Assembly (NCBI RefSeq): GCF_009905535.1
Contig: NZ_JAAALA010000001.1
Span: 1-64,000 of the forward strand
Source: Caulobacter sp. SLTY
GTDB taxonomy: Bacteria > Pseudomonadota > Alphaproteobacteria > Caulobacterales > Caulobacteraceae
Length of the DNA stretch: 64,000 nucleotides
Direction: 5' to 3'
Every line of letters begins with the position of its first letter. Position 1 is the first letter of the stretch. Under the pieces are notes generated by a model. That model had not been told where the DNA came from, did no database searches, and was given only the letters and a program-made list of their open reading frames with translations. A program made the translations under genes and the position numbers. Shown here piece after piece: positions 8,786 to 62,909 of this stretch.

Positions 8786-9568
8786 ATGGATCTCAGCAAC
8801 GCATCGGCGCTCGTCACCGGCGGGGCCGGCGGTTTCGGCGGCGCCACTGTCAGGCGCCTGGCCCAGCGGGGGGCGCGGGTGGTGATCGCCGACGTCCAGG
8901 CCGAGCGGGGCGAGGCCCTGGCGGCCGAGGTCGGCAACGGCGCGGTCTTCGTCAAGACCGACATCATGAGCGAGGACAGCATCGCCGAGGCGGTGGCCAA
9001 GGCGGTGTCGCTGGCCCCGCTGCGGGCGGCGGTGGTGGTCCATGGCGGCCCGCCCGCCCCCGGCGCCACGGGACCTGCCCGCACCGTCAACCGCGAGGGC
9101 AAGCGCCTGCCGCTGTCGCAGTTCATGCATACGGTGAACGTCTATCTCAACAGCGCTTTCGCGGTGACCAGCCAGGCGGCCGAGGCCATGGCCGCCAACG
9201 AGCCGCTGGAGTCCAACCAGCGGGGGGTGATCATCAACACCGCCTCCATCGCCGGCTATGAGGGCCAGCCTGGGCAGGCCGGCTATTCGGCGGCCAAGGG
9301 CGGCATCATCGGCATGACCCTGACGGTGGCGCGGGACCTGGCGCCGCTGGGCATCCGGGCCATGGCCATCGCGCCGGGCACCTTCCTGACCTTCGCCTAT
9401 TCCTCGCGGATGACCGACGAACAGGCTCAGGCCCACTGGGGCCCGATGGTCCCCAACCCCAAGCGGATGGGCGATCCCGACGAATACGGCATCCTCGCCG
9501 CCCACATCGTCGAGAACGACTTCCTGAACGGGACCACCATCCGCCTGGACGGCGCGCAGCGGTTTTAG
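8786..9568 (+). CDS. Short-chain dehydrogenase, 3-hydroxyacyl-CoA dehydrogenase type-2 (HSD10) like
   Basis: 260-aa NAD(P)-dependent SDR. The nucleotide motif is TGGAGGFG near residue 11. The catalytic Ser lies in NTASIAGYEGQPGQAGYSAAK, where the closing residues are the YxxxK pair. The GQPGQAGYSAAKGGIIGMTL and ARDLAPLGIRAMAIAPG stretches are close to 2-methyl-3-hydroxybutyryl-CoA dehydrogenases of isoleucine degradation. The usual NNAG motif is replaced by VVHGGPP, a possible change in the cofactor pocket. AAGGA lies 8 bases before ATG 8786. It is isolated between two copies of a palindromic repeat, so it is probably its own transcription unit. Confidence 0.88.
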   Translation: MDLSNASALVTGGAGGFGGATVRRLAQRGARVVIADVQAERGEALAAEVGNGAVFVKTDIMSEDSIAEAVAKAVSLAPLRAAVVVHGGPPAPGATGPARTVNREGKRLPLSQFMHTVNVYLNSAFAVTSQAAEAMAANEPLESNQRGVIINTASIAGYEGQPGQAGYSAAKGGIIGMTLTVARDLAPLGIRAMAIAPGTFLTFAYSSRMTDEQAQAHWGPMVPNPKRMGDPDEYGILAAHIVENDFLNGTTIRLDGAQRF

Positions 9569-10620: not shown

Positions 10621-10743
10621 GCCGACCAGATTAACGCCGGCGCAACCGTCCCGATACCGGTTCCTTAAGGTCTTGCCCGGCATGCTTACCGCCGGCTTCA
10701 CCATGACGTGGCGCCGACCTGAAGTTCCCGCGGAGCCGGCGCC

Positions 10744-11793
10744 ATGCCCCAGGCCGCCTTTGTCGCAGACCCCTTCCCGCGCCGGCCGCTGGCCCGGCCG
10801 ACGGCCAGCGGCTGCCGGCTGACCGACGAGGACGGCTGCGTCCGCATCGATTTCGACATGGCCGGCGGCGCGGTGCTGCTGGGCCATGCCCATCCCCGTA
10901 TCGAGGCAGCGGTGTCCGAGGGCGGCGCTGACGCCACGCGAGCCGCCGCCGCCCTTTCGGCCCTGTTGCCGCGCAAGCCGGCCGTCGCCTTCTGCGCCGC
11001 CGAGGGCCAGGCGCTTCCCGCCGCCGTGGCGGCCGCCCGCAAGGTCACCGGCCGCAAGCGCATCGCCGTATGGGAGCCCCGCGAGGGCGTCTGCAACGGC
11101 GAGACCGACCTGGCCGCGGTGCTGGCAGACCCACTCGGCATGACCCCGGCCCAGCTGCGCGCCGCCCGCAAGGCGGCCAGCGCGGCCGGCGCCGTGCTGA
11201 TCTTCGACGAGGGGGCCAGCGGCTTCCGTGTCCACGCCCAGGGCGCTCAGGGCCTGACCGGCGTCAAGCCAGACCTCGCGGTGTTCGGCGCCGGCCTGGC
11301 CAACGGCCGTCCGATCGGCGCCATCGCCGGCTCCAAAGACCTGATCGCCGCCTTGGACCCCGCCGACCTGCCCCCGCCCCGCGCCGACAGCCTGGCCGCC
11401 GCCGGCGCCACGCTCGACTTCCTGGGCCAGGCCGCGGTCGCCGCCCACCTGCAGGTGCTGGGCGCCGAATTGCAGACCGAAGTCGAGGGCCTGGTGGCGA
11501 AGGCCGGGGCCGGCCGCCTGTTCACCCTGGCCGGCGATCCCACACTGCCGACCCCGCTGTTCGCCGCCCCCGTCCTCGAAGGGCTGTGGATGCGGGAGAT
11601 GATCAGCCGCGACCTGATTGTGGTCGGTCCCCACGCCTTGAGCTTCGCCCACGGCGAGCCTGAGCTTTCCGCCCTCATCGACGCCTACGCCGCCGTGCTG
11701 CCGGCGATGATGGCCCGCAGCATGGCCGAGATCTTCGCCCGGCCCCGCCCCGAGTACGACCCGTATCGGTCCGCATCCGAAGGACGCGCATGA
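10744..11793 (+). CDS. Class III aminotransferase-like protein lacking the PLP lysine
   Basis: 349 aa with the fold signature of glutamate-1-semialdehyde aminomutases: GCRLTDEDGCVRIDFDMAGG, GHAHPRIEAAV, then LIFDEGASGFRVHAQGAQGL and GVKPDLAVFGAGLANGRPIG. In active members the last motif reads LGK..GGG.P.GA, with the lysine forming the PLP aldimine. Here residue 183 is alanine (codon 11290-11292). The phosphate-binding SGTEA motif is also replaced (CAAEGQ), and the protein is ~80 residues shorter than usual. A non-catalytic or different role is inferred. ATGA overlap with the next gene makes it the first gene of an AT-like/AKR-like/SpsF-like operon. Confidence 0.85.
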   Translation: MPQAAFVADPFPRRPLARPTASGCRLTDEDGCVRIDFDMAGGAVLLGHAHPRIEAAVSEGGADATRAAAALSALLPRKPAVAFCAAEGQALPAAVAAARKVTGRKRIAVWEPREGVCNGETDLAAVLADPLGMTPAQLRAARKAASAAGAVLIFDEGASGFRVHAQGAQGLTGVKPDLAVFGAGLANGRPIGAIAGSKDLIAALDPADLPPPRADSLAAAGATLDFLGQAAVAAHLQVLGAELQTEVEGLVAKAGAGRLFTLAGDPTLPTPLFAAPVLEGLWMREMISRDLIVVGPHALSFAHGEPELSALIDAYAAVLPAMMARSMAEIFARPRPEYDPYRSASEGRA

Positions 11794-12665
11794 GTTTCCC
11801 CCTCACCAAGCTCGGCCTCAGCGCCGCCCAGTTCGGACTGGGCGGCAACAGCGGCCCGCGCTCGCGCCCCCCGGAAGTGGAAGCGCGCGACATCCTCTCG
11901 ATCGCCGCGCGCGGCAAGCTGTCGGTGCTCGACGCCTCGGGCGTCTATGGCCGGGCCGAACAGATTCTCGGCGACCTGATTCCGCGCCCGTCCTCCTTCC
12001 GCCTCACGCTGAACAGCGTCCGGGCTGATCGCGGGCCCGACTTCGTCGAGCAGGAAGCCCGCAACTCCCTGCGCCGCATGGCCGTGGAGCGGGCCGACGC
12101 CATCGTGGTGCCGTCCGTCGGCGAGCTGTTCGGCCCGCACGGCATGGCCCTGTGGGACCGGCTGCAACAGCTGAAGGCCGAGGGCCTGTTCGCCCGCATC
12201 GGCATCTCGGTGCACGCCTCGGACGACCCGTTCGGGGTGGCCAAGCGCTTCAAGCCGGACCTGGTCCAGGCGCCGGCCTCCCTCCTCGACCAGCGCCTGC
12301 TGGCCGATGGCGCCCTGGCCCGCATCGCCGGGGCGGGGATCGAGGTGCAGCTGCGATCGATCTTCCTCAACGGCTTGCTGTTCCTGCCGCCAGACCGGGT
12401 GCCCGCCACCTTGAAGGGCGCCGCCGGGCGCCTGTCGCGCGTGCGCCGGATGATCGCCGAGGGCCGCAGCGATCCGCTGCAGGCGGCTCTGGGCTTTGCC
12501 CTGTCGCGCCCGGAGGCGACCGCCGTGCTTGTCAGCCCCACCACCGCCGCCGAGCTGTCGGCCATCATTGCCGCCGCCGCCAGCCCGCCGCCCGACCTCG
12601 ACTGGGACGATATGGCCCTCGATGACCCGGTCGCCCTGGATTCCGGGAGCTGGGCCGCCGCCTAG
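11790..12665 (+). CDS. Aldo/keto reductase-like protein with altered catalytic tetrad
   Basis: 291-aa TIM-barrel AKR homologue. It opens KLGLSAAQFGLGGNSG and has LDASGVYGRAEQILGDL, which supplies the tetrad Asp (~48) and Tyr (~53). Where active AKRs have Lys (…TK…) this one reads RLTLNSV (~71-77). Where they have His (…LLLH…) it reads AIVVPSVGEL (~104-113). The helix-strand GPHGMALWDRLQQLKAEGLFARIG is otherwise well preserved. Loss of Lys and His suggests no normal carbonyl reduction. Translationally coupled (ATGA) to the aminotransferase-like gene; 38 bp before the SpsF-like gene. Confidence 0.82.
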   Translation: MSFPLTKLGLSAAQFGLGGNSGPRSRPPEVEARDILSIAARGKLSVLDASGVYGRAEQILGDLIPRPSSFRLTLNSVRADRGPDFVEQEARNSLRRMAVERADAIVVPSVGELFGPHGMALWDRLQQLKAEGLFARIGISVHASDDPFGVAKRFKPDLVQAPASLLDQRLLADGALARIAGAGIEVQLRSIFLNGLLFLPPDRVPATLKGAAGRLSRVRRMIAEGRSDPLQAALGFALSRPEATAVLVSPTTAAELSAIIAAAASPPPDLDWDDMALDDPVALDSGSWAAA

Positions 12666-12703
12666 ACCCATCTCATAGGCCCGCTCAGAAGGAGCTCTTG
12701 CCG

Positions 12704-13405
12704 ATGATCCTCGCCATCCTCCAGTCGCGGATGACCTCTCGCCGGCTTCCCGGCAAAGCCCTGGCCAGCCTGGCCGGTCAGCCGATGGTGCTGCGCCAGA
12801 TCGAACGCCTGCGCGCCGCCCGCACCCTGTCAAAAGTTGTGGTCGCCACCAGCGTCGAGGCGGCCGATGACCCGCTGGCCGCCTTCCTGGTGTCCCGTGG
12901 CCAGGCGGTCTATCGCGGCGCGCCGGTCGACCTCCTCGGTCGCTTCGCCCGCTGCGCCGAAGTCGCCGGGGCCAGCCATGTGGTTCGGATCAAGGGCGAC
13001 GCCCCCTTCGTCGACCCGGCCATCGTCGACAAGGCCGCCCGCATCGCCCTGGAGAGCGGCGCCGACTACGTCCACAATCGCGGCTGGTTCGGCTTTCCCA
13101 AGGGGCTGGAGGTGGAGGTGATCCGCACGCCCGCCCTGATCGCCGCCGCCGAGGCGCCGCGCGATCCGGCCGCCCGCACCTCGCCGACCGCCTTCCTGCG
13201 CGCCGACCCGGCCCGGCACAAACAGGCCAGCTTCGCGGCTCCGCGTGATCTATCGGGGCTGGACTGGAGGGTGAAGACCCACGCCGACCTGGCCTTCGCC
13301 CGCTCGGTCTACGCCGCCCTGCACCCGGCCGACTCGGCGTTCGCCATGCGCGACGTCCTGGACCTGACCGGCGGCGGTCAGGACATGGCGCAGTACGCGG
13401 CTTAG
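12704..13405 (+). CDS. SpsF-like cytidylyltransferase-fold protein
   Basis: 233 aa. ATG 12704 is preceded by AAGGAG at a 9-base spacing. The glycosyltransferase-A type nucleotide-binding start is clear (ILQSRMTSRRLPGKAL), followed by RIKGDAPFVDP (normally R.TGDCP.IDP), DYVHN and FPKGLEVEVI. In SpsF/KdsB-like enzymes a later motif EHVTPYI and a metal-ligand Asp in VDT.eDL are conserved. Here they read RTSPTAFL (~158-165) and VKTHADL (~190-196, Lys for Asp). Homologues activate sugars with CTP for surface glycans. Activity here is doubtful. Last gene of its operon, followed by a strong terminator. Confidence 0.82.
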   Translation: MILAILQSRMTSRRLPGKALASLAGQPMVLRQIERLRAARTLSKVVVATSVEAADDPLAAFLVSRGQAVYRGAPVDLLGRFARCAEVAGASHVVRIKGDAPFVDPAIVDKAARIALESGADYVHNRGWFGFPKGLEVEVIRTPALIAAAEAPRDPAARTSPTAFLRADPARHKQASFAAPRDLSGLDWRVKTHADLAFARSVYAALHPADSAFAMRDVLDLTGGGQDMAQYAA

Positions 13406-13425: not shown

Positions 13426-13464
13426 GACCCCGCCGGCGGGGGGGATGGGCCGGCGGGGTCTTTT
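13426..13464 (+). terminator. Intrinsic terminator after the SpsF-like gene
   Basis: Perfect 12-bp GC stem (13426-13437 with 13449-13460), an 11-base G-rich loop, and TTTT at 13461-13464. Closes the aminotransferase-like operon and faces the end of the btuB-like gene. Confidence 0.85.
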
Positions 13465-17526: not shown

Positions 17527-18990
17527 ATGGACCGCCGCGCCCTGATCACCGCCTTCGCCGCCCTGCCGGCGGCGGCCATCCTCACCCCGGAGGCGGCCTT
17601 TGCCGCTTCCGCCCGGGCCAACCCGGCCTGGGCGCCGGCGGTGGGGGATGTCGAGACCGACATCGCCCCCCGCGCCCTGCGGCGGATCCATGGGCGGGCG
17701 CCCAAGGGGCTGGCCGGAACTCTGTTTCGCAACGGCCCGGCCAAGTTCCGCCGGCCGGGGGGAGACGCCGGTCACTGGTTCGATGGCGACGGCCTGGTGC
17801 GGGCCTTCCGCATCCGTGACGGCAAGGCCAGCCTCGCCGGTCGCTTTGTCGACACCTTCAAGCGCCGCCAGGACACGAAGGCCGGGGCCATGGTCAGCGC
17901 CGGCTTCGCCCAGGTCCCCCGCCCGGACGCCGTGGTCCGCCACGCCGATGACGCCAACGCCGCCAACACCGCCCTGCTGCCCATCGGCGGCGAGCTCCTG
18001 GCGCTTTGGGAGCAGGGCTCGCCCTATGCGATCGATCCGGTCACGCTGCAGACCAAGGGCCTGAAGACCTTCCGCCCCGACCTGGCCCACATGCCCTTCC
18101 TGGCCCATCCGCGCATCGAGCCGGACGGCCGGGTGTGGAACCTGGGGGTAGCCGGCCGCAAGGCGCTGGTCTGGACCCTCAGCCCCGATGGTTCGTTGGC
18201 CGGCACGGCGATGATCGATCTGCCCCGCGCCGCCTATATCCACGACTTCACCGCCACGCAGCGCCATCTGGTCATCGCCCTGCAGCCCTGGATCCAGGAC
18301 CGCCGCGCCCAGCCCTTCGTCGCCAGCATGAGCTGGCGGCCGGAGCAGGGGACTCAGGTGCTGGTCATCGACAAGGACGATCTGACCAAACGCCGGATCT
18401 TCGAACTGCCGGCCTTCTTCGCCTTCCACTTCGGCGACGCCTGGGAGGAGGCGGACGGGACCATCCGCTTCGACGCCTGCGTCAACGCCGAGCCGACCTT
18501 CGCCGCGCGTGGTGGCAGCGAACTGATCGCCTACAAGTCGCCCACTGACCATCAGGACACCCGCCTGGCCCTGATCACCCTGCGGCCGGGCGGCAAGGCC
18601 GAGCTGCAGTCCACCGGGCTGACCGCGGAGTTCCCCCGCTCGGACCCCCGCTTCGCCGGCAAGGCGCGGAGCAAATCGGTGATCAACACCGTGGGCGGCG
18701 GCGCGGACCTGCCCTTCCTGCGCGGGGTGGCGGTCAGCGACTGGCGCACCGGCAAGGCCGACGTCTTCGACTTCGGCCCCGATCACTGCGTCGAGGAGAT
18801 GCTGTTCGTCGCCCGGCCCGGCTCGACCCGCGAACTCGACGGCTGGCTGGTCGGAACCAGCCTGAACCTCAAGGCGCGAGCCACCGAGCTGCATGTGTTC
18901 GACGCCAAGGCGGTCTCGGCTGGACCTGTATGCAGCTGGCGCGCGGACGTCCCGTTGCCGGTCGGCTTCCACGGCGCCTGGATGGGCTAG
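17527..18990 (+). CDS. Exported carotenoid oxygenase (RPE65/CCD family)
   Basis: 487-aa non-heme Fe(II) enzyme of the carotenoid/stilbene cleavage family, a seven-bladed propeller. GTLFRNGPAKFRRPGGDAGHWFDGDG is the family opening (split here: GTLFRNGPAKF, HWFDGDGLVRAF). The four iron histidines are recognisable in LAHPRIEPDG, YIHDFTATQ, FFAFHFGDAW and the C-terminal GFHGAWMG. An N-terminal MDRRALITAFAALPAAAI stretch followed by EAAFAA suggests export (Tat-like RR), unusual for a family whose bacterial members are mostly cytosolic or membrane-associated. Partner gene DUF2141 upstream; tetR begins 38 bp downstream. Confidence 0.9.
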   Translation: MDRRALITAFAALPAAAILTPEAAFAASARANPAWAPAVGDVETDIAPRALRRIHGRAPKGLAGTLFRNGPAKFRRPGGDAGHWFDGDGLVRAFRIRDGKASLAGRFVDTFKRRQDTKAGAMVSAGFAQVPRPDAVVRHADDANAANTALLPIGGELLALWEQGSPYAIDPVTLQTKGLKTFRPDLAHMPFLAHPRIEPDGRVWNLGVAGRKALVWTLSPDGSLAGTAMIDLPRAAYIHDFTATQRHLVIALQPWIQDRRAQPFVASMSWRPEQGTQVLVIDKDDLTKRRIFELPAFFAFHFGDAWEEADGTIRFDACVNAEPTFAARGGSELIAYKSPTDHQDTRLALITLRPGGKAELQSTGLTAEFPRSDPRFAGKARSKSVINTVGGGADLPFLRGVAVSDWRTGKADVFDFGPDHCVEEMLFVARPGSTRELDGWLVGTSLNLKARATELHVFDAKAVSAGPVCSWRADVPLPVGFHGAWMG

Positions 18991-62761: not shown

Positions 62762-62909
62762 AAGCTAGAGCCCCTTCTGAGCTTGTGGGTCGAATGACGG
62801 GGGTAGCTAATCGAAGAGTCCTTAAAGGTGGCTTACGCCGCATTGCAACTTGACCGGCCGCGCCGGCCTGGCCCTTGCCGCAAGGCCGCGCGGGTCCCAT
62901 GTTCGGCTC

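Follow-up and report, generated by a model that had tools for sequence, protein, structure and literature searches.

The 64,000-nucleotide stretch analysed here (positions 1 to 64,000, forward strand, of contig NZ_JAAALA010000001.1 of Caulobacter sp. SLTY; hereafter the window) carries a compact operon of three genes, which encode an aminotransferase-like (AT-like) protein, a protein related to the aldo/keto reductases (AKRs) and an SpsF-like protein (Table 1). All three proteins score above the cut-offs of Pfam models. A reading made from the letters alone, without database searches (the sequence-only reading), had taken the three for catalytically altered enzymes and the operon for a candidate undescribed system. 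The altered residues were found in all three coupled genes: the AT-like protein lacks the pyridoxal phosphate (PLP) lysine, the AKR-like protein lacks the Lys and His of its tetrad, and the SpsF-like protein has Lys for a metal Asp and no Glu-His pair. Here and below we take the AKR tetrad residues, the PLP lysine and the metal Asp to be the catalytic positions. The tight coupling and the strong terminator that had been described were also borne out. The first two genes share the four nucleotides ATGA, the stop codon of the second lies 38 nt from the ATG of the third at 12704 (32 nt from an alternative TTG), and a 72-nt stretch at the terminator folds with -39.8 kcal/mol (z -5.8), a stability that none of 200 shuffled sequences equalled. 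A simple terminator scan recovered only short pieces of this stem, and the two that it found against 1.4 expected are about the number due to chance. The middle gene is, judging from its sequence, kidO, a known cell-division and cell-cycle regulator of Caulobacter. The proposal of an undescribed system was dropped once the AKR-like protein had matched the KidO model; the operon is an old one, and it is informative on the origin of a studied regulator.

Table 1. Features of the kidO operon and its surroundings, with positions in the window
Feature	Position	Strand	Remarks
AT-like gene (class III aminotransferase-like, glutamate-1-semialdehyde (GSA)-aminomutase-like)	10744-11793	+	349 aa; PF00202 1e-14
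kidO (AKR-like gene)	11790-12665	+	291 aa; NF011432 487.5 bits; tetrad D-Y-N-P; C-terminus WAAA
SpsF-like gene	12704-13405	+	233 aa from ATG 12704 (235 aa from TTG 12698); PF02348 6e-19
ATGA stop/start overlap of the AT-like gene and kidO	11790-11793	+	identical 4-nt overlap in 18/18 AT-kidO loci
CCTTAAG element, probable part of the operon promoter region	10663-10669	+	18/18 AT loci, 0/68 other kidO loci
TTAACGCCGGCGCAA, degenerate CtrA-box-like sequence, tentative	10631-10645	+	TTAA-N7-TTAA with 2 mismatches
Intrinsic terminator	13426-13464	+	12-bp GC stem (13426-13460), 11-nt loop, TTTT
XdhC-like gene, upstream, divergent from the operon	9682 to ~10620	-	also next to kidO or the AT-like gene in L035 and L039

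The NCBIfam model matched by the AKR-like protein is NF011432, 'bifunctional regulator KidO', with a cut-off of 244 bits. The KidO of C. crescentus/C. vibrioides belongs to the same family (575.3 bits for C. vibrioides, locus L039, against 487.5 for the window protein) and has the same short C-terminal Ala tail, and the protein of C. vibrioides DSM 9893 is about 77-78% identical to that of the window. The C. vibrioides locus also has an SpsF-like gene downstream, but it is without the AT-like gene that precedes kidO in the window, and its tetrad is D-F-S-H instead of D-Y-N-P. A scan of named genomes placed KidO orthologues in Caulobacter, Phenylobacterium and other Caulobacteraceae, with the nearest in metagenome-assembled genomes of Caulobacter (90-91%). 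The window protein keeps the Asp and Tyr of the tetrad (D48, Y53) and has N75 and P108 where Lys and His are gone. For comparison we used 87 distinct kidO genes, drawn from 30 loci of one search and the best 80 of 115 of another and including many close relatives. The full tetrad is present in none of the 87 proteins; Asp is found in 83 (Glu in 4), Tyr in 33, Lys in 10 and His in 14. Tetrad loss does not follow one fixed pattern: the missing members differ among KidO proteins, and 28 different four-letter patterns occur. The most altered KidO-like proteins, with the pattern L-TR, are without even the tetrad Asp (G062, G108 and G124 (genus g13), L186, L216 and L217). The window protein ends in AA, as do 48 of the 87, the other 39 having VA as their last two residues; among 23 further family loci AA is found in 22 and VA in one (L163 = L211 and L166 = L101 are repeats). 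In one genome of the genus Caulobacter the kidO match (G027:C1:173190-174066) consists of two overlapping pieces, suggesting a frameshift. The model NF011432 also accepts AKRs with a full tetrad, namely G078:C12 (L170:18398-19291) at 392.8, L160 at 404.9 and L218 at 276.4 bits, so the name KidO may be put on working enzymes.

The AT-like protein matches the class III aminotransferase family PF00202 with 54.5 bits (cut-off 30.5). Its best NCBIfam match, at 2.4e-30, is NF004856, the PRK06209-type glutamate-1-semialdehyde-aminomutase-like aminotransferases of sugar loci, which are also matched, at 1.1e-113, by an intact homologue in another genus of the family (genome G078). Unlike these enzymes, the window protein scores 105.4 bits, where the cut-off is 486, and is without the PLP lysine and the flanking PLP-site segments. 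The lysine site reads VFGAGLANG in the window versus FGKGLANG in intact relatives; it is Ala or Ser in all 18 orthologues of the genus, and the lysine is gone in 28 of 29 aligned sequences of the family. In an alignment with the intact proteins of G078 and of L228, a locus outside the family, three stretches are missing from the window protein: the beginning of the N-terminal region, a loop of ten residues and a 36-residue segment containing YHGW. The SSTMGG loop is replaced, and the FDE Asp is kept. PLP chemistry by the protein is unlikely, since the lysine is Ala and the YHGW and SSTMGG segments are absent or replaced. About 100 positions are invariant among 18 AT-like sequences. Its AlphaFold2 model, with a mean predicted local distance difference test score (pLDDT) of 62.8, was too poor for use.

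The SpsF-like protein scores 69.1 bits with PF02348 (cut-off 22.6), and its AlphaFold2 model (pLDDT 88.8) has as its best PDB match a Leptospira cytidylyltransferase (6oew, template modelling score 0.90). In comparison with the SpsF/FlmC-type cytidylyltransferases of cytidine monophosphate (CMP)-sugars, as treated in passages of PMC7439481 and PMC7591256, it has the same CTP_transf_3 fold and nucleotide motif but differs in having Lys for the second metal Asp and SP for EH. GDAP is kept, VKTHAD stands against the VDxPxD of the enzymes and TSPT against EHVT. In 58 of 61 orthologous sequences (three short pieces were dropped) the second metal Asp is Lys in 55, Arg in two and Asp in one, Ser-Pro replaces Glu-His in all 58 and the first Asp is kept in 57. 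At one locus (L063, ~9049-9400) the SpsF-like frame stops after 117 aa and is possibly broken. A further difference from the SpsF/FlmC-type enzymes is that the genome of the window carries a separate intact paralogue (G000:C36:11109-11801, L240) with EHVT and VDRPDD, directly followed by PseG (TIGR03590 193.2 bits, cut-off 153.55). This adjacency indicates that a separate, intact copy serves the pseudaminic-type pathway, and the two genes, likely an flmC-flmD pair, resemble that of C. crescentus as described in PMC7591256. A role of the SpsF-like protein as the flagellin-glycosylation enzyme FlmC was ruled out, the intact gene beside PseG being the better candidate.

The same kinds of change thus recur across species in all three proteins, a check that the sequence-only reading had proposed, as it had the analysis of substitution rates given below. 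At the 87 kidO loci an AT-like gene lies upstream in 18 and an SpsF-like gene downstream in 61, and all three genes are together in 16. Profile searches of 249 genomes of the family, in which at most eight candidates per genome were scored for the AT, gave 232 matches to KidO (E <=1e-15), 152 to the SpsF-like protein (E <=1e-10, paralogues included) and 25 to the AT-like protein (E <=1e-40), 14 of these in the genus and 11 in six other genera. In each of the 25 places the AT-like gene immediately precedes kidO, on the same strand; because the profile was made from kidO-linked copies, this association is to some extent built in for the genus, but not for the 11 places in other genera. Ten of these 11 have Asp, Glu, Pro, Ala or Ser at the lysine site and one, in G078, has the lysine. 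The median ratio of non-synonymous to synonymous substitution (dN/dS), computed by NG86 alone, which is rough at this GC content, is 0.365 for the AT-like gene, 0.144 for kidO and 0.230 for the SpsF-like gene in the clade of the window (5 sequences, 10 pairs) and 0.185, 0.107 and 0.177, respectively, in a second clade (6 sequences, 15 pairs). No pair in either clade exceeds 0.52. The medians below 1 speak against pseudogenisation and place all three altered genes under purifying selection. Recent pseudogenes were ruled out by the open frames, the shared changes and the dN/dS values below 1.

The sequence-only reading had named intact homologous trios in relatives as evidence that would tell against its proposal. 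One such trio exists: in G078 the genes for the AT, the AKR and SpsF lie in the same order and on the same strand with all motifs intact (TFGKGLANG in the AT, D-Y-K-H in the AKR, EHVTPF and VDRPEDF in SpsF). It tells where the trio came from, and it does not make the altered copies meaningless. In two further genera, g14 (L155, L160) and g18 (L157), the AKR has a full tetrad and the AT has lost its lysine, which indicates that the AT died first on those branches. A class-wide search of 385 genomes with the AKR of G078 gave matches in 20 genomes, 16 of them outside the family, and in these 16 the AKR tetrad is always full. The earlier statement that the three families co-occur in glycan loci also found support there, as among the 16 outside-family neighbourhoods an AT match lies near the AKR in nine, an SpsF match in nine and both in seven. 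The AT lysine is present in nine of nine (one, L222, being a remote match at 31%), and the second Asp is present in all ten SpsF matches and EH in nine. One neighbourhood, L228, contains NeuB (1e-88), GNAT, HisF-like and glutamine-amidotransferase genes and has the look of a nonulosonate cluster, and another, L225, contains PIG-L, sulfotransferase, methyltransferase and ATP-grasp genes. A fused SpsF-like/AKR protein is described from a Pse cluster in PMC7371886. Nonulosonic-acid clusters with NeuB, such as L228, have the AT, AKR and SpsF families side by side as the window does, there in intact form; they differ in their surroundings, since the neighbours of the window trio (XdhC-like gene, TonB receptor) are not sugar genes.

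Phylogenetic analyses of the three proteins agree only in part, because G078 is not a plain sister in the AKR tree. All support values given here come from careful trees, the first quick trees having had long branches. In the AT tree G078 is sister to the altered AT-like proteins (100/97 for the group including G078, 100/99 for the altered proteins) and L228 is next (100/100). The SpsF tree likewise makes G078 the sister of the altered SpsF-like proteins (96/94 and 100/99), and L228 follows (89/82). The AKR tree sets the outside enzymes apart (100/99) and unites Caulobacter, Phenylobacterium and their kin in a clade of 14 rows (100/100), none of which has a full tetrad. On our reading of the AT tree a single loss of the lysine would suffice by parsimony. 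The intact AKR of G078 also carries the C-terminal WAAA, so that alanine tails occur at all 23 further family loci, as against AA in only two of the 16 AKRs outside the family. The tail therefore seems to have arisen before the active site was lost, as would be expected if proteolytic regulation came first; we regard this as a lead, in which chance and descent are not separated.

KidO is a classic example of how a homologue of a metabolic enzyme was recruited to cell-cycle control. According to the passages on it in PMC7083601, KidO of C. crescentus binds NADH and acts on FtsZ and the CtrA pathway, and its C-terminal alanines serve clearance by ClpXP; its promoter is CtrA-dependent in the passage of PMC6169604 that concerns it, and parts of PMC8262945 and PMC12421884 treat it further. 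The passages on KidO in this literature do not state where it came from. We consider it likely that the kidO operon descends from a working sugar operon of nonulosonate type that was turned to regulation by staggered catalytic losses. The ancestor would have been a working aminotransferase, aldo/keto reductase and SpsF cytidylyltransferase operon of the type that serves nonulosonic acids (sialic-acid-like sugars), in which inactivation of the AT came first and loss of the AKR active site later. This gives KidO a concrete origin, which would start from the intact state in G078 and pass through that of g14 and g18, with a dead AT and an intact-looking AKR with C-terminal AA, to Caulobacter and Phenylobacterium. 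By orthology with C. crescentus, the KidO of the window would bind NADH and FtsZ, restrain the CtrA pathway and be cleared by ClpXP via its C-terminus. What the comparison shows is the anatomy, conservation and ancestry of the operon; as to present roles of the two neighbours of kidO, we infer that the AT-like protein may set the dose of KidO or assist it without catalysis, acting by ATGA translational coupling and perhaps by binding, and the SpsF-like protein may be a retained pseudoenzyme of the kidO unit that binds a nucleotide or sugar nucleotide. Both now stand as testable partner candidates. A search of titles and abstract openings, whose scope did not take in the KidO paper of Radhakrishnan et al. 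(2010), found nothing on an AT-like or SpsF-like neighbour of kidO. More speculatively, the sugar-nucleotide operon may have become a division-control module in which the two pseudoenzymes bind KidO and/or a sugar nucleotide (cytidine triphosphate or a CMP-sugar), tune the action of KidO on FtsZ and the CtrA pathway and so couple division to the supply of envelope sugars; we hold this to be possible, though doubtful.

Several observations weigh against descent of the kidO operon from a working sugar operon and against the roles suggested above for the AT-like and SpsF-like proteins. Within the family the intact trio comes from a single genome, G078, and the flanks of that trio had no recognised sugar genes among the open reading frames inspected. 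In the AKR tree G078 falls in with other early genera at weak support (94/75, 87/66) and is not the sister of all altered KidO proteins. Of the AKRs outside the family, the three most closely related to KidO (L218-L220) stand without an AT or SpsF in their surroundings; a plain search for the closest non-KidO AKRs found no adjoining AT or SpsF, and only two AT matches below threshold (E 0.41 and 0.72; L111). Two of the 16 AKRs outside the family also end in AA. Of the 87 kidO loci, 69 have no AT-like gene and 26 no SpsF-like gene, so that KidO does not generally depend on either. In the window, no canonical CtrA box lies in the promoter region of the operon, and the genes adjoining the trio (XdhC-like, short-chain dehydrogenase, TonB receptor) include no NeuB or other pathway gene, the rest of the window not having been searched for NeuB.

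The absence of the neighbours from so many loci makes slow decay a serious rival. Here KidO alone would matter, and the AT-like and SpsF-like genes would be remnants of the sugar operon, carried in a needed transcript and lost lineage by lineage. The retention of the AT-like gene in 18 and of the SpsF-like gene in 61 of the 87 loci is what such a process would leave; the AT-like gene evolves fastest (dN/dS 0.365), the tetrad losses of KidO are irregular, and breakage does occur, as in the kidO gene of G027, split into two frames, and in the SpsF-like gene of L063, which ends at 117 aa. On the other hand, the AT-like gene is open in all 18 loci of the genus, with the same ATGA overlap, and in ten loci of other genera after the loss of its lysine; dN/dS is well below 1, and the nearly fixed Lys at the metal site of the SpsF-like protein (55 of 58) is unlike drift. 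We judge slow decay somewhat unlikely. The invariable ATGA overlap in the genus, together with the linkage of the AT-like gene to kidO in 25 of 25 places, could also mean that the AT-like gene is a translational leader, whose coupling sets the amount of KidO while the protein itself does little. Most kidO loci have KidO without any AT-like gene, and the AT-like protein is constrained, with about 100 positions that do not vary among 18 sequences, so that a leader of this kind seems rather unlikely to us.

Two other explanations assign the trio a function apart from the known one of KidO. The sequence-only reading had favoured a set that co-evolved to a new role, for example a three-protein complex or a glycan-sensing assembly. 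The genes are indeed coupled, all three are altered in 16 of the 87 loci, and their homologues cluster in glycan loci. KidO, however, is already known as a regulator that targets FtsZ and the CtrA pathway, and co-evolution as a set is not supported, because the losses are staggered, with the AT lysine lost in g14 and g18 where the AKR tetrad is full, and because the set is not obligate. An assembly of this type is accordingly improbable. Least of all do we expect the three proteins still to be enzymes with an altered chemistry that make or modify a surface sugar. In favour of this, the SpsF-like protein has retained the cytidylyltransferase fold, the nucleotide-binding motif and, in 57 of 58 orthologues, the first Asp. 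The AT-like protein, however, has lost the residues around the PLP of the intact homologue, namely the lysine, YHGW and the SSTMGG loop, the XdhC-like and TonB receptor neighbours in the window are not sugar genes, and the genome has an intact SpsF paralogue beside PseG. Descent of the kidO operon from a sugar operon through staggered losses remains the explanation that we prefer.

The heptamer CCTTAAG lies 56-82 nt 5' of the AT-like gene in all 18 loci that have one and in none of the 68 other kidO loci examined, and it is probably part of the operon promoter region. A motif scan for the CtrA box (TTAA-N7-TTAA, <=1 mismatch) found none near the operon; the single match in the window is at 62822-62836 on the + strand, against 0.43 expected by chance. 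Under the same limit a CtrA box occurs upstream of 15 of 86 kidO loci. The promoter scan returned 0 sigma-70-type sites. Downstream of the trio a gene for a TonB-dependent receptor lies on the opposite strand. The XdhC-like neighbour is found next to kidO or the AT-like gene in L035 (C. ginsengisoli DSM 18695, which has the trio) and L039 as well. Further along the window, at 17527-18990 on the + strand, lies a gene for a protein of the RPE65 family (lignostilbene/carotenoid dioxygenase-like).

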